Assembly (NCBI GenBank): GCA_030431455.1
Contig: JAUIJE010000022.1
Span: 1-61,049 of the forward strand
Source of the DNA: a bacterium
Lineage (GTDB): Bacteria; Myxococcota; UBA727; JAUIJE01
Reading direction: 5' to 3'
DNA: 61,049 bases
This document shows positions 549-60,318 of the stretch, piece after piece; the stretch's first letter is position 1, and each line of letters begins with the position of its first letter. The position numbers were made by a program, and so were the translations under genes. The notes under the pieces are model-generated. The model did no database searches, was not told where the DNA came from, and was given only the letters and a program-made list of their open reading frames with translations.

Positions 549-1793
549 CTAGCCTTCGGGCAACACCTCGGCATCCCAATCGTCCTCCCCCGCCCCCTTT
601 TGGGGGGGCGGATTTTTTTTGCTGGGGGGAGGATCTCCGGGTGGGGGGGACTTGCCCCCCTCCCTGTTTTTATTGGGTTTTTCGGATTTTTGTTCGGCAG
701 GCTTATCATTGGCGGGCGGCGTCTGGGCGGACTCGCCCGCCGGTTTTTGATCGCCCCCGCGATCGTTTTGGGCGGCTTTGCCCCCCTCGCCCGGCCCCGT
801 CTTCTCCGCCGCGGGCGCGGTGCCCGACGACCCGCCGCCCCCGCTGGCCGCGGGCTTGTGCGTTTGGGCGGTGGTCTGTTCGCCGCCCTTCGCGCCGCCG
901 GTCGTGGCCGGCTGTTCGCCCCCGGCCGCCCCCCCCTCGGTCGCGGGAGGGGACGACGCCGCGGCCGCGCCGTCGCCTGCCGCGGCCGGTGCTTGGCCCG
1001 CGATGTAGACCCGCACCCGCACGCCGCCGGTGGACTTGGCGTCCGGGCCCTTCAGCACCTCGGGCTTGAGCGCGAAGCGCGACACCGGGATGCCCGCCGA
1101 CGTGAACGCGGCCTGCACCTCTTCGGCGCGGTTTTGGGCCAAGCCCTCCGCCCGCGTCCGCTTGGTCTCCAGCAGCCCGGCGAGGCCGTCGATCTCGATG
1201 CGCACGAGGTTCTGCTCTTCGGCCTTGGTCTGCTCGACGATGTCGGCGAGCACCCGCGCGCCTTGCTCGGTTCGCGACGCCTTGCCCCGCTTGGTCTCGA
1301 GCAGGGCCTCGGTGAGCAGCACGACCTGTTCGCCCGCGAGCAGGTTGCGATCGCCCTCGGGACAACCGTCCGCGTCGCGCTCCCCGTCGATGTCCTCTTT
1401 GCGCGAGGGGCACGCGTCGAGATGGTCGGGGATGCCGTCGCCGTCGGCGTCCGCCTGGGGACAGCCGTCGGGAAAACCGCCGGGCTCATCGGGACAGCCG
1501 TCGTCGTAGTCCGCGATCATGTCCTTGTCCGCGTCGGGATCGGGACAGCCGTCGTGATCGAACATGTCGTTCAACGTCTCGGGCGTGGTGGGGCACAGGT
1601 CCACCGCGTCGTCGACCCGGTCCCCGTCCTCGTCCTTGTCGCTGCATTCGCGTTGGGTCTCGACTTGGTCTTGGTCGCGGAAGTACTGGTCGCACATCCG
1701 GGGCTCTTTTTTGGGGGGCGGGTCAGAGGCACACCCGGTGCCGCCGGGGGCGCTCATCCCGAGCAGACCGATGAGGACGAGCCGCGCGCGCAT
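549..1793 (-). CDS. Thrombospondin type 3 repeat / OmpA-like lipoprotein
   Basis: A 414-residue exported lipoprotein (signal peptide ending GGTGC). Residues about 35-145 are Asp-rich calcium-binding thrombospondin type 3 repeats (DADGDGIPD, CPDPDADKD). Residues about 150-270 resemble an OmpA C-terminal domain, with the conserved Arg-containing helix (QNRAEEVQAAF), but the usual HTD motif that holds diaminopimelate is replaced by DGLAG, so peptidoglycan binding is doubtful. The last 140 residues are a low-complexity Ala/Gly/Glu/Lys/Pro tail. The gene follows the MCE protein by 4 bases, so it is the last gene of the lipid transport operon and may anchor or brace that system in the periplasm. 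The role in lipid transport is inferred from position only. Confidence 0.85.
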   Translation of the reverse strand: MRARLVLIGLLGMSAPGGTGCASDPPPKKEPRMCDQYFRDQDQVETQRECSDKDEDGDRVDDAVDLCPTTPETLNDMFDHDGCPDPDADKDMIADYDDGCPDEPGGFPDGCPQADADGDGIPDHLDACPSRKEDIDGERDADGCPEGDRNLLAGEQVVLLTEALLETKRGKASRTEQGARVLADIVEQTKAEEQNLVRIEIDGLAGLLETKRTRAEGLAQNRAEEVQAAFTSAGIPVSRFALKPEVLKGPDAKSTGGVRVRVYIAGQAPAAAGDGAAAASSPPATEGGAAGGEQPATTGGAKGGEQTTAQTHKPAASGGGGSSGTAPAAEKTGPGEGGKAAQNDRGGDQKPAGESAQTPPANDKPAEQKSEKPNKNREGGKSPPPGDPPPSKKNPPPQKGAGEDDWDAEVLPEG

Positions 1794-1797
1794 GAGG

Positions 1798-3807
1798 TCA
1801 GAACGACGGAATGAACGGCAACAATCCGCGCAGGTCGTCGTCCTTGAACATGATGCCGACCCCGATGAAGAAGTCGGTCCCGTACCGGTGGAAGGCGGGG
1901 TCGATGTAGACGATGTCGCCGGTGGAGATCATGCGTTCGTAGTCGACCATGTTGAGGATGTCGTCGAAGCCGGCGGACAGGTACACGTAGGGCACGGGCT
2001 GAACCTTGAGGGTCGCGCGCCACCGCGGCAGGGTAAACAATGGATAGGCAGGGTCGTTGAGGTTCTGGCTTTGATTGCGCGGACCACCGAAGTTGAAGAA
2101 GTCGTTGCGCAGCTGGATGCGGTCGTCCCAGAGGAACAGGTCGGCCCCCACCCCGCCGGAGGTCTCGATGAGCCCGGCGCGGAGGATGACGATCTCGAAG
2201 AAGCGCTTGGCGAACATCGCGGTGAAGCGCAGGGTGTTGTCGTCGTACCAAGTGGACTCGCGGCGCACGAAGGCGAGGCCCCCGGGGGTGTTCTCCACGG
2301 AGTTGACCACCCGGGTGAGCTGCTCGAACGCCCCCCCGTCGTTGACCACCTCGACGAGGTAGAACTTGTCGGGGTTGGGCTGGATGCGCAGACCGAGGGC
2401 GACGTTGGCCTTGCCCCGGCGCACGCTGTACCAGGTGCCGAGGTCGATGTAGGTCTCGAGGCTGGTGACCGACTCGACGAGCTCGGCCGCGCCCACCGCC
2501 GCGCTCTCCATGCGATCCGCGAGCTTCTCGTCGGTGAGCAGCTTGCCCACGGTGCCCTCGCCGCGTTCGATCCGGCCGGTGATCTCCGAGAGGTTCTCCA
2601 GGGAGGTGTTGAGCTGGTCGAGGCTCGCCTTCATCTTCTTGATGCTCTCGCCGAAGTTGCCCTCCTCTTCGCCCACCGCGTCTTTGAGCGCCCCCGTCAC
2701 CACCTGGAGGTCGTCGGTGATCTTCTGCACGTTGGCCATGGTCTCGCGGATTTCGCCCCCGGTGGGGGGCCCCCCGTCGACGCCGGGGGTGAGCGGCTTG
2801 GTGAGGTCCTCGACGTCTTTGGAGATGCGCTCGAGGTTGGCGAGCAGGCTGGTGACCGCCTCGTCGTTCTTGTTGACCACCCGGTTGATGTCCTTGGTGG
2901 CCCGCTTGATCGAGTTGACCATGTCGCGGACGTCGGTGACCACCATCTCGTAGAGCTCGTCGAGAGGGGGATTTTCTTCGTCCCCCTCGATGAACTTGTT
3001 GATGTTGTCGGCGATGGACTCGACGTGGGCGATGGTGCGGGTGATGTTCTCGTCGGCTTGGCCCACGATGTCGCGGATGCTGGTGACCAGCTCCTCGACC
3101 TGGGTGGCGATGGTGTCGAACTGCGTTTTGCTGCGGACGTTGTGGATGCGCCCCTCGGGCTCGACCAGGGTCTTGTCCGCGCCCAGCTCCAAGAACAATG
3201 CCTTTGCCCCCAGGAGGCCGAGGCTCTCCTTCTTGAGCCAGCTGTCGGTGGGCACCTGCACGTCATTCGACACCCGCATGTCGACGCGGGCGACCTTGAC
3301 CGGGTCTTTGGGGTTGAGCCCCACCACCCCGAGGCGGGTCTCGTAGGCCACCGGATCGCCCTCCTGCCGCTCGATGCCGAGGAGCAAGCCACGCAGGGGG
3401 CTTTTCACGTCGAGCTCGCCGCGCTCGGTGGAGAGCACCACCAACACTTCCTCGGGCTCGACCTGGTCGCCGGGCTTTTTGAGCCACCGGGCCACGGTGC
3501 TGCCGTCGGGGATGAAGCCGGCCTGCTTGGGGTAGAGCGCCTCGCTGCGGTCGTCGGGGTTGGGGAGCAGCTCCTCGACGCTGACCTGGCGCAGGGTGAT
3601 GTCTTGGATTTCGCCGATTTGAAGACCGGCCACGGTGATCAACGATTTGGCTGACAGCCCCGACGCGTCGGTCATGTACGCGTAGTACGGCTCGCTGTTG
3701 AGCTCGTTGAGGGTGGACTTGCGCGACTGCGCAAAGAAATAGATGGCGACCGCCACCCCGGCGAGCACCACGAGGCCGGCGCGAAACGCGTTGGCGGTCT
3801 CGTTCAT
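1798..3807 (-). CDS. mlaD: Large MlaD-like MCE protein with inserted lipoyl-like domain and C-terminal barrel-like region
   Basis: A 669-residue protein, far longer than E. coli MlaD (about 180). An N-terminal membrane anchor (residues about 10-26) is followed by the first part of an MCE domain (about 38-75, ending VAGLQIGEIQDITL). Residues about 78-165 are an insertion with the fold pattern of a lipoyl/biotinyl carrier domain (WLKKPGDQVEPEE, LDVKSPLRGLL), with Arg129 where the modified lysine would be. The MCE domain resumes at about 168-220. A long coiled-coil region (about 220-440) follows, then about 230 residues rich in alternating strands that end in Phe, like an outer membrane barrel. 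MCE proteins form rings or tubes that carry phospholipids across the periplasm. Start chosen at ATG 3807; an in-frame GTG lies 4 codons upstream. Confidence 0.85.
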   Translation of the reverse strand: MNETANAFRAGLVVLAGVAVAIYFFAQSRKSTLNELNSEPYYAYMTDASGLSAKSLITVAGLQIGEIQDITLRQVSVEELLPNPDDRSEALYPKQAGFIPDGSTVARWLKKPGDQVEPEEVLVVLSTERGELDVKSPLRGLLLGIERQEGDPVAYETRLGVVGLNPKDPVKVARVDMRVSNDVQVPTDSWLKKESLGLLGAKALFLELGADKTLVEPEGRIHNVRSKTQFDTIATQVEELVTSIRDIVGQADENITRTIAHVESIADNINKFIEGDEENPPLDELYEMVVTDVRDMVNSIKRATKDINRVVNKNDEAVTSLLANLERISKDVEDLTKPLTPGVDGGPPTGGEIRETMANVQKITDDLQVVTGALKDAVGEEEGNFGESIKKMKASLDQLNTSLENLSEITGRIERGEGTVGKLLTDEKLADRMESAAVGAAELVESVTSLETYIDLGTWYSVRRGKANVALGLRIQPNPDKFYLVEVVNDGGAFEQLTRVVNSVENTPGGLAFVRRESTWYDDNTLRFTAMFAKRFFEIVILRAGLIETSGGVGADLFLWDDRIQLRNDFFNFGGPRNQSQNLNDPAYPLFTLPRWRATLKVQPVPYVYLSAGFDDILNMVDYERMISTGDIVYIDPAFHRYGTDFFIGVGIMFKDDDLRGLLPFIPSF

Positions 3808-3897: not shown

Positions 3898-4755
3898 TCA
3901 CGCGTTTTTGGCCGTCCAGGTCGCGAAAAACTGCTTCACGAACGGATGTTCGGACGCGAGGCAGTCCTCTTTGCTCCCCCGCACCACGATTTCGCCCTCA
4001 AACACGAACAGGATTTGGTCGGCGATCTTGAACGCCGAGGCGATGTCGTGGCTGATGACGATCGACGTGATGCCCAACGATTGTTTGGCCTGGAGGATCA
4101 TCTCGTCGACCTGATCGGTGGTGATGGGGTCCAGACCGGTGGTGGGCTCGTCGTAGAGCACGATGGTGGGCTCGAGGGCCACCGCGCGGGCGAGGCCCAC
4201 GCGTTTGCGTTGGCCCCCCGAAATCTCCGACGGAAAACGCGGGCCGAGGATGTCGGGGTCGAGCGAGAAGAGGTTCATCAGGTAGCGCACCCGCTCGTCG
4301 ATCTGGGCCACCGACATGTCTTTGCGGTGCTCGCGCAGGGGGAACGCGACGTTGTCGTAGTTGGTCATGGAGTCGAACAAGGCCGCCTGCTGAAACACCA
4401 TGCCGAACTTCGAACGCACCCGCTTGAGCTCGAGCGGCCCGAGCTTGGTGATGTCCTCGCCGTCGATGAGCACGCTCCCCGACGTGGGCTTCAGCAGGCC
4501 GATCATGTGCTTCATCAACACCGACTTGCCCATGCCCGAGCCCCCGAGCACAACCGCGACGCTGCCCTTTTCGATCTGGAGGTTGATGCCCTTGAGCACC
4601 TCCCGTGTGCCGAACGTCTTGCGCAGCTCCTTGACCTCGACCGCATACGGGGGCCGCTCGGGCATCACCGCGGTCTCGGGCGTGATCGCATCGAGGGCGG
4701 GGTTGGTCGGGGCCGGCTGGTCGGGCACCGTTTTGTCGTCGTCAAACCCGGTCAT
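3898..4755 (-). CDS. mlaF: MlaF-like ABC transporter ATP-binding protein
   Basis: The 285-residue ATPase of an MCE-type phospholipid transporter. It carries a full set of ABC motifs: Walker A GGSGMGKS, Q-loop VFQQAALF, signature ISGGQRKRVGLAR, Walker B IVLYDEPTTGLDP and H-loop VISHD. It should work in the cytoplasm on the permease encoded immediately upstream; the two genes are 3 bases apart. A Pro/Thr-rich N-terminal extension of about 35 residues precedes the ATPase domain. The MlaB (STAS) and MlaC (periplasmic carrier) genes of the E. coli operon are absent here, which is common outside gammaproteobacteria. Confidence 0.95.
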   Translation of the reverse strand: MTGFDDDKTVPDQPAPTNPALDAITPETAVMPERPPYAVEVKELRKTFGTREVLKGINLQIEKGSVAVVLGGSGMGKSVLMKHMIGLLKPTSGSVLIDGEDITKLGPLELKRVRSKFGMVFQQAALFDSMTNYDNVAFPLREHRKDMSVAQIDERVRYLMNLFSLDPDILGPRFPSEISGGQRKRVGLARAVALEPTIVLYDEPTTGLDPITTDQVDEMILQAKQSLGITSIVISHDIASAFKIADQILFVFEGEIVVRGSKEDCLASEHPFVKQFFATWTAKNA

Positions 4756-4758
4756 GGC

Positions 4759-5655
4759 TCACTTGGGCAGCGCGTTGAAGTAGATGTAGCCCTGCAAGAG
4801 CGGCTGGAGCAGTTCGGTGATGACGTAGGTCCCGACCAACACGCTCACCGACGACATCACCACCGCGGCGGTGGCCGCCTCGCCGACCCCACGCGCGCCC
4901 CCCGAGGTGTTGAAGCCTTTGTAGCAGCTGATCAACGCGACCTGCGCCCCGAAGAACGCGGCCTTGATGTAGCCCTCATAAAAATCCGGCGGGTCGAGGA
5001 TGTTCCACGTTTCGTACATGAACACCCCCGGGTCGACCCCCTCGCGCACCACCGTCATCAGGTACGAACCCAGAAAGCCGCAGCCCGTGTAGATCGACGC
5101 CAGCATCGGCAACATCAACGTCGCCGCCACCACCCGGGGCACGACCAGATACTGGATGGGCTCCACCGCCATCGTCGACAGCGCATCGATCTGCTCGGTG
5201 ACACGCATGGTGCCAAGCTCGGTGGCCATGCCCGACCCCGAGCGGCCCGCGACCATCAGGGCGGTCAGCACCGGCCCCATCTCGCGGGCCAGCGAGATCA
5301 GCGTCGCGGGCCCGACCATGGCCTCGGCCCCAAATCGCTTGAAGCCCACCAACGTCTGTAGGCCGAACACCAACCCGGTGAAAAACCCGGTGAGCACGAC
5401 GATGAACAGCGAGCCAAACCCGATGTCGCGCACATGCCGCAGGGTCTCGCTCCACCGGAACGGCCGGCGCGGCAACCAGAACAGCACCCGGCCGGTGAAC
5501 AGGACGATGTCGCCCATTTCCACAATGCCTTTGATCACCGGCTCGCCGAGCGCCGCGATCATCAGGTACAGCCGCCGCCCGATGCCCGGCTTGTCCGGGG
5601 CCTTGTCGGGGGGCTGTCCGTCGGGCTTTGGCGCGGGCGCGGGCGCGTCGGTCAT
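4759..5655 (-). CDS. mlaE: MlaE-like permease of the MCE lipid transporter
   Basis: A 298-residue MlaE/YrbE-family integral membrane protein. After a Pro/Lys-rich cytoplasmic N-terminus the family core is clear: GFFTGLVFGLQT, the REMGPVLTALMVAGRSGSGMA segment and the conserved TEQIDALSTM loop. About five or six membrane helices are expected. It pairs with the ATPase downstream and hands lipids to or from the MCE protein. The gene begins 37 bases after the alr stop. No Shine-Dalgarno sequence precedes the ATG; instead TATCGT lies 7 bases upstream, as at several other genes in this window. Confidence 0.93.
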   Translation of the reverse strand: MTDAPAPAPKPDGQPPDKAPDKPGIGRRLYLMIAALGEPVIKGIVEMGDIVLFTGRVLFWLPRRPFRWSETLRHVRDIGFGSLFIVVLTGFFTGLVFGLQTLVGFKRFGAEAMVGPATLISLAREMGPVLTALMVAGRSGSGMATELGTMRVTEQIDALSTMAVEPIQYLVVPRVVAATLMLPMLASIYTGCGFLGSYLMTVVREGVDPGVFMYETWNILDPPDFYEGYIKAAFFGAQVALISCYKGFNTSGGARGVGEAATAAVVMSSVSVLVGTYVITELLQPLLQGYIYFNALPK

Positions 5656-6880: not shown

Positions 6881-6999
6881 CGGGCCGGAGGTACGTGGCC
6901 CACGCGGCCCCTGCAAGGGGCCCACGGCGGGGGCGGAAACTAGGTCGCCGGCGACGTTATTCGATACGCTGTGCGCTCTGAGCACGGGAGTCTCCGTTG

Positions 7000-8625
7000 G
7001 TGAAAGGCAGCAGCCCCTTCTGTGTGGGCATCGATTTGGGAACCACCAACACCTGCGCGGCATTCGCCGACGGGCGCATCCCCCGTGTGATCCCCACCGA
7101 GCGGGGCCACAACCTGCTCGCCTCGGTGGTCGCGTTCGTCGACGGCAAGACCCTGATCGGTCAACCGGCCAAAGACCAACTCCTGATCAACCCCGCCGAG
7201 ACGGTGTACGGGAGCAAACGACTCATCGGCCGCGCCTACCACTCCCGTGAGGTGCAACAGCTGAAGGAGCGCTTCGCGTACCACATCGTCGAGGGCACCC
7301 GCGGCCGGTGCGCGGTGCAAATCGGCGACGACGTGCACCAGCTGACCGACATCGCCGCGATCCTGTTGCGCCAGATCGCGACCTACGCCGAGACCCACAA
7401 AGGCCAGACCGTCGACGGGGTGGTGATCACGGTGCCCGCCTTCTACCCCCAAAGCCAGCGCGAAGCCGTGCGCCAAGCGGGCAAACGCGCGGGGCTCGAC
7501 GTGTGGCGCTTGGTCAACGAGCCCACCGCGGCCGCGCTCACCTACGGGCTCGGCCGCCACGAGGATCAGAAGATCCTCGTGTTCGACCTCGGGGGCGGGA
7601 CCTTTGACGTGTCCATCGTCGAGACCGCGGGCACGATGTTCCAGGTGCTCGCCACCGGGGGCGACGGCTTTTTGGGCGGGGTCGACTTCGACATCCGCAT
7701 CACCGAGTACCTGCTCGACAAATTCGAAAAAGACACCGGCGTGGTCGTGCGCGACGACTCCACCGTCGTGCAGCGCATTCTCAACGCCGCCGAGGTCGCC
7801 AAGTGCGACCTCTCCGCGCTCCAGCACACCGAGGTGCGGCTCCCCTTCGTGGCCCAAAAGCGTGGCCGGCCCCTCGACCTCACCGAGCGCATCGATCGCA
7901 AGTTCCTTGTCGAGCTGACCGACGACCTCGTGACCCGTTGCATGACCGAGGTCGAGGCCGCGCTGTCCCGCGCCGGCTTGGCCGAGGACGACATCGACGA
8001 GGTCGTGCTCGCCGGGGGCCAGACCCGCATGCCCGCGATCCAGGACAAGCTCCACCAACTCTTCGGCCGGCCGCCGCGGCGGGGCGTGCACCCCGACGAG
8101 GTGGTGGCCCAGGGCGCGGCGCTGTTGGCCAAATCCCTCGGCCAATCCGACGGCATCCGGCTGCTCGACGTCATCTCCGTGCCCATCGGGGCCGCGGTGC
8201 GCAAGACCGACGACGACACCCCCGCGGTCAAGTACGTCATCGAGTCCAACATCCCCCTCCCCCTCGACGCGTCGATCGAAATCCCCACCACCCAAGACAA
8301 CCAAACCGAGATGGAGATCGACATCTTCCAGGGGTTCTCCACCGACGTGACCGAAGCCGAGTACATAGGCTCGGTGTTGTACGACGGGTTGCCCCTCGGC
8401 CCCGCCGGGGCCCGGGCGGTGGTGCTCACCTTCTCCGTCGACGTAGGCGGCATTTTGAGCATCAAGGCCCACCACGGCAACGACCGCGCGGCCCGGCGGC
8501 TGCCCCTGGTGGGCCGGCACCCGGACTACCTCGAGTCCTTGGTCTGGCAGCGAATGGACGAGGACACCCAAGAGTTCAAGAAGCCTGAGATCAGCCTGCT
8601 GCGCCGCTTGTTCGGCAAAGGCTGA
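7000..8625 (+). CDS. Hsp70-family chaperone lacking the C-terminal lid
   Basis: A 541-residue Hsp70 protein, about 100 residues shorter than DnaK. The nucleotide-binding domain is complete: GIDLGTTNTCAAF near the N-terminus, VFDLGGGTFDVS and VLAGGQTRMPAIQ for phosphate and adenosine contacts. The substrate-binding beta domain is present (about 385-500), but the helical lid and the acidic DnaK tail are missing; the protein ends RRLFGKG. It is probably an Hsp70 paralogue and not the housekeeping DnaK; no grpE or dnaJ is nearby. The start is a GTG with GGGAG 9 bases upstream; an adjacent in-frame TTG at 6997 is an equal alternative. It converges on the sigma factor gene with a 9-base gap. Confidence 0.9.
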   Translation: MKGSSPFCVGIDLGTTNTCAAFADGRIPRVIPTERGHNLLASVVAFVDGKTLIGQPAKDQLLINPAETVYGSKRLIGRAYHSREVQQLKERFAYHIVEGTRGRCAVQIGDDVHQLTDIAAILLRQIATYAETHKGQTVDGVVITVPAFYPQSQREAVRQAGKRAGLDVWRLVNEPTAAALTYGLGRHEDQKILVFDLGGGTFDVSIVETAGTMFQVLATGGDGFLGGVDFDIRITEYLLDKFEKDTGVVVRDDSTVVQRILNAAEVAKCDLSALQHTEVRLPFVAQKRGRPLDLTERIDRKFLVELTDDLVTRCMTEVEAALSRAGLAEDDIDEVVLAGGQTRMPAIQDKLHQLFGRPPRRGVHPDEVVAQGAALLAKSLGQSDGIRLLDVISVPIGAAVRKTDDDTPAVKYVIESNIPLPLDASIEIPTTQDNQTEMEIDIFQGFSTDVTEAEYIGSVLYDGLPLGPAGARAVVLTFSVDVGGILSIKAHHGNDRAARRLPLVGRHPDYLESLVWQRMDEDTQEFKKPEISLLRRLFGKG

Positions 8626-57738: not shown

Positions 57739-60318
57739 TTACTCCAGGACCTGCTCCGCCGGGAACCCGCGCAGGTTGTAGCGCGAGCTCATGACCGCGC
57801 CGTAGGCCCCGGCGGTGGCGATGAGCAGGATGTCGCCGGGCACGGTGTGGGGCAGCGGACGCGCGGTGCCGAGCGTATCGCCGGTCTCGCAGATCGGGCC
57901 CACCACGTTGGCGACCATGGCCATGGGCTCGTCGAGCCGGGTGAGGTTCACAATGTGATGGTAAGCCCCGTAGAGCGCGGGCCGAATCAGGGTGTGCATG
58001 CCCGCGTCGATGCCCACGTACTGGATGTCATCCTTTTGTTTGGTCTGGTTGACCCGGGCGAGGATGACCCCGGCCCGCGCGACCATAAACCGCCCGGGCT
58101 CGAGCCACAGCTCGACGTCGGGGGTCTCGGCTTTGACCTCAGCGAGGTGCGCGCTGAGCGCGCCGATGTCGAGAGGGGACTGACCCGGCTTTTCCACCAC
58201 CCCGAGGCCGCCGCCCAGGTCCAGGAACGTCACCTCGTCAAAGTGCCGCCGGGCCTCGAGCAGAAAGTCGGCGGTCTGGGCCCAGCTGTCCGGTTGGCGG
58301 ATGCCGCTGCCCGCGTGCGCGTGCAATCCAATGACATGGGCGCCGAGCTTTTTCACCACCCCGGCCGCGCGCTCGACCTCGCCGAGGGTGATGCCGAACT
58401 TGCTGCGCTTGCCCGCGGTGCGGACGTGGGCGTGATGGCCTTGGCCTTTGCCCGGGTCGAGGCGCAACGAGAACGACCGCCCTTCGAATACCGCGGGCGC
58501 CTGTTCGAGCACGCCGAGGTTGTCGACGTTGACCCGCACGCCTTTGTCGAAGGCCGCGGTGTACTCATCGGGGTGCGCGAAGTTGGGGGTGAACAGCACC
58601 CGCTGGGGATCGAGGTCGGGGAACAGCTCGAACACGTGGCCCAGCTCGCCGGGGGACACGCACTCCAGGCCGAGGCCACGCTCGACGAAGGTGCGCAGGA
58701 TCTCGGGGTGGGGGTTGGCCTTGATGGCAAAGAACACGCGGTCGACGGGTTTGATCGACTGCACTTGGTCGCAGGCGGCGAGCAGGGTCGGCCGGTTGTA
58801 GACGTACGTTGGGGTCGGGCCTTGGGCCGCGAGGTCGAGCAGCTCTTGGCGCCGTCCCGTCCACCACCGCGTCACCGGGTCCGCGGCTTCGGGCTCTTCC
58901 TGGTCAAAGATCTGGGCCCAGGTGCGGCCGAGCAGCTCGTCGGTGGTGTGCACCCCCGAGAACAACAACGTGTGGAGTTTTTTGACCAGCCGATCGGCCT
59001 GGTCCTCGTCGATGACGAAGGTGAAGTTCAGGTCGCTGGCCGCCTGGCTCACGAGGTGGATGCGCTGCTCCTCGAACACGCCGAGGGCGGGCCCGAGCTT
59101 GTGCAGGATGGCGCGGATGTTCTGTCCCACCAGGCTGAGGGCGGCGCAGTGTTCGATCACCGTGACCCGGCCCAGGGTGGACAGCTCGGTGGCCAACCCA
59201 CGCAGCTGATCGTCGTCGAGCGCCTGGGCGCCCGCGTCGATGGAGCAGGTCACGTTGGCTTCGGAGGTCGAGACCAAGTCGACGCTCACCCCGTGGGTCT
59301 TGAACGCGCCGAATACGTCGGCGAGAAAGCCCACCTGCTGCCACATCCCGAGGGTGTTGAGCGAGACCAGCGTGATGTTTCGTTTGTGCGAGATGGCCTT
59401 GACCCGGGCGCCCCCCGACGGGGGATTGCGGGTGATGACCGTGCCCTCGGCCTCTGGCTTTTGGGTGCAGCGGATGTGCACGGGGATGCCGGCTTTGCGC
59501 ACCGGGAGCAAGCAGCGCGGATGCAGTACCTTTGCGCCGGTGGTGGCGATCTCCTGGGCCTCTTCATAGTCGAGGGCGCGCAGCAGCCGCGCCTCGGGGA
59601 TGTCCCGCGGGTTGGCGGTGAACACCCCGGGGACGTCGGTCCAGATTTCGCAGACCTCGGCCCCGATTTGAGCGGCGAAATACGCCGCCGACGTGTCCGA
59701 CCCGCCGCGCCCGAGCAACGCGGTGTGACCGTCGGGACGGCGGGCGATGAACCCTTGGGTCACGAACACGTCCGCGCCCAAGTCGGACAACGCGGCGCGC
59801 ATGCCCTCGTCGAGCGTGATGTCGCAGGTCGCGGACAGATAGGTCCGCGGGAGGGTTCCGCTCTCGGTGGTCACCAGGTGTTCGCGGGCGTCGACAAACG
59901 CGACCGACAAGCCCGCCTTGCGCAGGTAAGCCGCGCCCAGTGTCGTCGACAAGAGCTCCCCCGCGCTCATCGCGCGCGCCCGCAGCCGGGGGCTGACCTC
60001 CTCGACCAGGGCCGCGCCTTTGACCAACCGCTCCAGGTCCGCGAGGTACATCTCCGCGTCCCCGAGCCCGTCGAGGCCCAGGTCCTTCGCGAACGCTTCG
60101 TGGCGGCGGCGGAAGTCGCCCAGGGTCTCCTCGTGCACGCCCCGCGCCGCCCCCGCGAGCACGTCCTCGAGCAGGTTGGTCATGCCCGACAGCGCCGAAC
60201 ACACCAGCACCGGGGTCATGCCCGCCGCGCGCTTCTTGTCGACTTCCGTCCGAATCGTGTCCCACTCGACGCGCCCTTTCACAGACGTGCCGCCGTATTT
60301 CATGACCGCAAAACGCAT
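57739..60318 (-). CDS. lysAC: Bifunctional aspartate kinase / diaminopimelate decarboxylase
   Basis: An 859-residue fusion of the first and last enzymes of lysine synthesis. Residues 1-470 are aspartokinase (KYGGTSV at the N-terminus, RGGSDTSAAYFAAQIGA, and two ACT-type regulatory domains with ITLVSLNTLGM and LVGQN). Residues about 475-859 are the decarboxylase, with the PLP lysine in FFAIKANPHPEIL, the HAGSG segment and the C-terminal GPICETGDTL. The family fusion LysAC is known from some gammaproteobacteria. GGGAG lies 5 bases before the ATG. It is transcribed toward msrP, 28 bases away. Confidence 0.95.
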   Translation of the reverse strand: MRFAVMKYGGTSVKGRVEWDTIRTEVDKKRAAGMTPVLVCSALSGMTNLLEDVLAGAARGVHEETLGDFRRRHEAFAKDLGLDGLGDAEMYLADLERLVKGAALVEEVSPRLRARAMSAGELLSTTLGAAYLRKAGLSVAFVDAREHLVTTESGTLPRTYLSATCDITLDEGMRAALSDLGADVFVTQGFIARRPDGHTALLGRGGSDTSAAYFAAQIGAEVCEIWTDVPGVFTANPRDIPEARLLRALDYEEAQEIATTGAKVLHPRCLLPVRKAGIPVHIRCTQKPEAEGTVITRNPPSGGARVKAISHKRNITLVSLNTLGMWQQVGFLADVFGAFKTHGVSVDLVSTSEANVTCSIDAGAQALDDDQLRGLATELSTLGRVTVIEHCAALSLVGQNIRAILHKLGPALGVFEEQRIHLVSQAASDLNFTFVIDEDQADRLVKKLHTLLFSGVHTTDELLGRTWAQIFDQEEPEAADPVTRWWTGRRQELLDLAAQGPTPTYVYNRPTLLAACDQVQSIKPVDRVFFAIKANPHPEILRTFVERGLGLECVSPGELGHVFELFPDLDPQRVLFTPNFAHPDEYTAAFDKGVRVNVDNLGVLEQAPAVFEGRSFSLRLDPGKGQGHHAHVRTAGKRSKFGITLGEVERAAGVVKKLGAHVIGLHAHAGSGIRQPDSWAQTADFLLEARRHFDEVTFLDLGGGLGVVEKPGQSPLDIGALSAHLAEVKAETPDVELWLEPGRFMVARAGVILARVNQTKQKDDIQYVGIDAGMHTLIRPALYGAYHHIVNLTRLDEPMAMVANVVGPICETGDTLGTARPLPHTVPGDILLIATAGAYGAVMSSRYNLRGFPAEQVLE

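Follow-up and report, generated by a model that had tools for sequence, protein, structure and literature searches.

The MlaD-type MCE protein encoded in the window (the whole stretch of 61,049 nucleotides that was analysed) is interrupted in the beta3-beta4 hairpin of its MCE domain by a lipoyl domain of the E2 (dihydrolipoyllysine acyltransferase) type, in which the lipoylated lysine is replaced by arginine. Judged by its sequence, the insert is a real lipoyl domain and not a chance resemblance. It clearly exemplifies the reuse of an enzyme's cofactor-carrier domain within a lipid transporter, one that probably spans the membranes. The gene was read from ATG 3807, which matches the starts of the orthologs; the ORF delivered by the program begins four codons earlier at GTG 3819 and has 673 residues. 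Residue numbers were counted from ATG 3807, except for the Pfam coordinates, which were counted on the 673-residue ORF. The gene and the parts of its product are as follows.

1798 to 3807, minus strand: MlaD-type MCE protein with lipoyl-like insert, 669 residues, M1 at 3807; orthologs L066-L072
3718 to 3798, minus strand: predicted N-terminal transmembrane helix, residues 4-30; helix in the model, aligned with the MlaD transmembrane helix of 7cha/6xbd
3592 to 3702, minus strand: first part of the MCE domain, beta1-beta3, residues 36-72; first half of Pfam MlaD, model strands 38-45, 56-59 and 62-76
3304 to 3591, minus strand: insert in the beta3-beta4 hairpin, residues 73-168; variable among the orthologs
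3313 to 3543, minus strand: lipoyl-domain homology, E2 type, residues 89-165; from Pfam, NCBIfam, the tree, solved structures and an E2 profile
3421 to 3423, minus strand: codon of Arg129, which replaces the lipoylated lysine; from the alignment
3124 to 3303, minus strand: second part of the MCE domain, beta4-beta7, with the pore-loop motif SLGLLGAKALFL, residues 169-228; from the model compared with the E. coli MlaD core
2464 to 3123, minus strand: long helical stretch, residues 229-448; helices predicted with low confidence, weak coiled-coil-like Pfam matches
1840 to 2463, minus strand: predicted C-terminal barrel, about 10 beta strands, residues 449-656; model strands 451-655, matches to OpcA and TMB10, kept in the orthologs

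The MCE domain breaks off after VAGLQIGEIQDITL, which ends at residue 72, and restarts at VKVARVDMRV. Pfam MlaD covered only the first half of the domain (residues 43-78, E 5.5e-10, above the cut-off), and Pfam Biotin_lipoyl was found on residues 103-163 (E 1.7e-7; 31.4 bits, where the cut-off is 22.1). In the full-length AlphaFold2 model the MCE core reached a pLDDT of about 63-85, and residues 36-226 were superimposed on E. coli MlaD (5uw8) with a Z score of 17.0 and an rmsd of 1.4 Å over 97 residues, with the insert looped out. According to this model the MCE barrel is seven-stranded and otherwise intact. The insert falls between model strands 62-76 and 169-180, and its site in the model is the beta3-beta4 hairpin of the published strand numbering. 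The helix of residues 4-30 presumably serves as an inner-membrane anchor. The C-terminal barrel, which was modelled with moderate confidence, matched OpcA (1k24; Z 14.4, rmsd 2.4 Å over 133 residues) and the designed barrel TMB10 (8uzl; Z 13.0), and would be located in the outer membrane.

That a lipoyl-type domain interrupts the MCE domain had been proposed in an earlier note on this DNA, and the proposal was borne out by the split Pfam matches and by an E2 lipoyl profile built in this work. The insert scored 54.7 bits with this profile, while the best of 1000 shuffled versions of the insert scored 9.1. It was 37-47% identical to E2 lipoyl domains with a single one-residue gap, and its best relatives among solved structures, at 4.4e-18 and 4.9e-7, were likewise E2 lipoyl domains. 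The NCBIfam matches over residues 89-165 were to SucB-type E2. In a tree of 26 lipoyl and biotinyl domains from the same genome and its relatives, the insert grouped with the E2 domains and apart from the biotinyl domains with a support of 100/100, although its branch was very long and its exact position among the E2 domains was not fixed. The earlier note had called the domain "lipoyl/biotinyl-like"; the lipoyl part of this description holds and can be narrowed to the E2 type, while a biotinyl origin was rejected from the tree and from the missing MKM motif.

Two further origins were considered and set aside. The lipoyl domain of periplasmic adaptors is split by a helical hairpin. Half-motifs separated in this way, as in the MFP/HlyD type, were absent, and the domain runs continuously over residues 89-165. 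An assembly chimera is unlikely, because more than half of the sequence differs from the genome's own E2 domain, the flanks are homologous to the orthologs in frame, and the third-codon GC of the insert resembles that of the remainder of the gene.

The models of the insert itself were of low confidence. In the full-length model its pLDDT was about 30, and MAFFT had misaligned the inserts of the orthologs onto it. When the insert was modelled as a single sequence, the pLDDT was 48 and five strands were obtained at positions compatible with a lipoyl domain. Among the matches that Foldseek listed for these two low-confidence models, none was to a lipoyl domain, and the single-sequence model gave nothing below E 1. 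The sequence homology is nevertheless strong enough that a barrel-sandwich fold of residues 89-165 is expected.

The earlier note had also read the cofactor lysine as replaced by arginine, and this was found to be correct. The lysine of the STDKVE motif corresponds to Arg129 in the insert (STERGE), so that the lysine in the D-K-V/A turn which marks E2 acceptor sites is lacking. Among 34 positions that were invariant in eight E2 domains, 15 were changed in the insert. Of the 12 such positions that lie in the beta1-beta2 loop or in the hairpin of the lipoyl lysine, 11 were changed, compared with 4 of the 22 outside these regions (Fisher p 5e-5, with the two regions chosen after the changes had been seen). 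The beta1-beta2 loop of E2 lipoyl domains participates in E1 recognition. In the hydrophobic core 18 of 23 positions were kept, a number reached by none of 100,000 shuffled sequences, and the glycine and proline positions of E2 lipoyl domains were kept as well. Changed loops around a kept core are the pattern expected of a domain reused for structural purposes. It is very improbable that the domain is still a binding partner of E1, E3 or a lipoylation enzyme, or that it is modified at another residue. Its E2-type ancestry would agree with such a role, but the acceptor lysine is arginine, both recognition loops are rewritten, and MCE domains are located in the periplasm whereas the E2 machinery is located in the cytoplasm.

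The lipoyl insert was confined to this genome among the 16 genomes of its order, and no second case was found in an MCE protein among 195 genomes of the phylum. This survey was made within the phylum, the family of the source genome is represented by one genome, and the insert is known from a single sequence. Scans of genome contigs with MCE patterns returned the same members of the order and one distant relative, with no further lipoyl insert. Scans of viral contigs found no lipoyl or MCE relatives, and plasmids gave matches to the lipoyl region only, mostly annotated as E2 and none spanning most of the query. The literature search retrieved no paper on a lipoyl domain inside an MCE protein.

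Other inserts were frequent at the same site. Among the orthologs, which come from the same order, the hairpin was loopless in L072, and about 20 residues were present in L070 and L071; L073 also carried no insert. Longer inserts without lipoyl homology, which we judge from their sequences to be helical, were present in L066-L069; about the first 16 residues of their loops are common with the protein of the window. An MCE paralog in the same genome (C8:451280; L032/L108) has an insert of 100-145 residues in the beta3-beta4 hairpin, and so have its relatives in several genomes of the order (G003, G006 and G008; L103, L104 and L105); Pfam gave no informative match for the insert of the paralog. 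A further MCE protein (G032:C334; L022/L107) carries in this hairpin a cysteine-containing insert of about 100 residues, which by eye is unrelated to the lipoyl insert. Altogether about 10 of about 120 MCE matches in 56 surveyed relatives were interrupted or shortened. As far as the sequences indicate, the beta3-beta4 hairpin is a recurrent insert site in the MlaD-type MCE family, a place where MCE rings acquire whole modules. Two other MCE proteins (L110 and L111) carry a beta4-beta5 insert, in the hairpin that bears the insert of Acinetobacter MlaD.

If this hairpin tolerates insertions, a stably folded but functionless lipoyl domain could have been fixed by drift as a neutral passenger. This explanation would be consistent with the occurrence in a single genome and with the orthologs and paralogs, whose hairpins carry no insert, about 20 residues or unrelated longer inserts. 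The core positions were kept in spite of divergence to about 40% identity, and the fold was therefore probably maintained over a long time, which makes a passenger somewhat unlikely. As variants with no, short and long inserts occur naturally in one orthologous gene, the function of such inserts in MCE proteins can be tested.

The genes next to the MCE gene are oriented in the same direction, with the mlaF-like gene, mlaE and the alanine racemase gene (alr) following upstream.

549 to 1793, minus strand: OmpA/thrombospondin-3-repeat protein, directly downstream; Pfam TSP_3 4.4e-7 and OmpA 7.8e-6, the latter just under the cut-off
3898 to 4755, minus strand: MlaF-like ABC ATPase; Pfam ABC_tran 4.8e-32, NCBIfam MlaF 1.2e-53, the latter below its cut-off
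4759 to 5655, minus strand: MlaE permease; Pfam MlaE 4e-77, NCBIfam MlaE family above the cut-off

The order alr-mlaE-mlaF-MCE-TSP3 protein is common to the locus of L072, and mlaE-mlaF-MCE is also present in that of L069. An Hsp70-like protein is encoded at 6997-8625 of the window on the plus strand, divergent from alr-mlaE-mlaF, and a similar ORF lies divergently beside mlaE in L069. Farther away, a single ORF at 57739-60318 on the minus strand combines an amino-acid kinase with an ACT domain and a PLP-dependent decarboxylase, apparently an aspartokinase/diaminopimelate decarboxylase fusion. No MlaA or MlaC was detected in the genome, which is 96.9% complete; both searches were positive in E. 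coli and Caulobacter. Four copies of the MlaE permease were present as against only three MCE matches (contigs C8, C10 and C13), and two of the MlaE ORFs adjoin each other at C8:29467-30884. With the C-terminal barrel, the adjacent mlaE and mlaF genes and the absence of MlaA and MlaC, the protein is most likely a trans-envelope MlaD of the Veillonella type.

We give an even chance to the following explanation, in which the protein is a membrane-spanning MlaD-type subunit with a lipoyl domain exapted as a non-catalytic collar or docking module of the ring. One chain would provide the inner-membrane helix, the hexameric MCE ring, the helical tunnel and the outer-membrane barrel, and would form a minimal MlaE-MlaF-MlaD lipid transporter. 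An E2-type lipoyl domain would have been gained in the beta3-beta4 hairpin within this lineage. Because the protein is exported, lipoylation and E1 recognition, both cytoplasmic, would have become useless and would have been lost, with the lysine changed to arginine and both functional loops rewritten while the core of the fold was kept. Six copies would then surround the MCE ring as a non-catalytic collar, which might stabilise the ring, contact MlaE or the neighbouring helices of the tunnel, or dock a partner; the downstream OmpA-like protein is a candidate for the latter. The earlier note had suggested an extra ring or a docking surface, and such a role is plausible. The hexamer, the periplasmic location, the direct bridging of the membranes and the collar or docking role are all inferred.

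Among the closest known systems is the trans-envelope MlaEFD of Veillonella parvula with its long MlaD (PMC10665443). Both proteins have a transmembrane helix, a single MCE domain, a long helical stretch and a C-terminal barrel of about 10 strands, and both are encoded next to mlaE and mlaF without MlaA or MlaC. The Veillonella protein has only 419 residues compared with 669 here, and the lipoyl-type domain in the MCE barrel is a feature of the present protein. An MCE barrel bearing an insert is also known from Acinetobacter baumannii MlaD, where 45-47 helical residues are located between beta4 and beta5 (PMC7677376, PMC8420772) and their function is not known (PMC7677376). The insert described here is longer (about 96 residues), of the lipoyl type and one hairpin away, between beta3 and beta4. 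With the lipoyl domains of E2, e.g. 1pmr and 9y7v, it shares the identity and the core positions given above, but it differs in the arginine, in both functional loops and in its position in a membrane transporter without an E2 catalytic domain.

MacA has a ring of lipoyl domains with a gating loop (PMC10094684), and six lipoyl-like domains could in the same manner form a closed second ring on the MCE ring and lengthen or gate the lipid tunnel. From strand parity in the published strand order (PMC8420772), the pore loop and the beta3-beta4 hairpin would be expected at one and the same end of the barrel, which would favour such an arrangement. The insert, however, is of the E2 type and not a split adaptor domain, and the linkers on its two sides, about 16 and about 4 residues long, leave its orientation free; a second ring is therefore considered unlikely. 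It is quite unlikely that, independently of the tripartite efflux adaptors, an MCE transporter has reached their lipoyl-ring-over-barrel architecture and gates or extends its lipid tunnel in this way. The protein and the adaptors MacA, AcrA and HlyD would nevertheless have in common a non-modified lipoyl-type fold, expected here from sequence, in a ring-forming and presumably periplasmic transport protein, although the domain described here is continuous, E2-like and itself inserted into another barrel.
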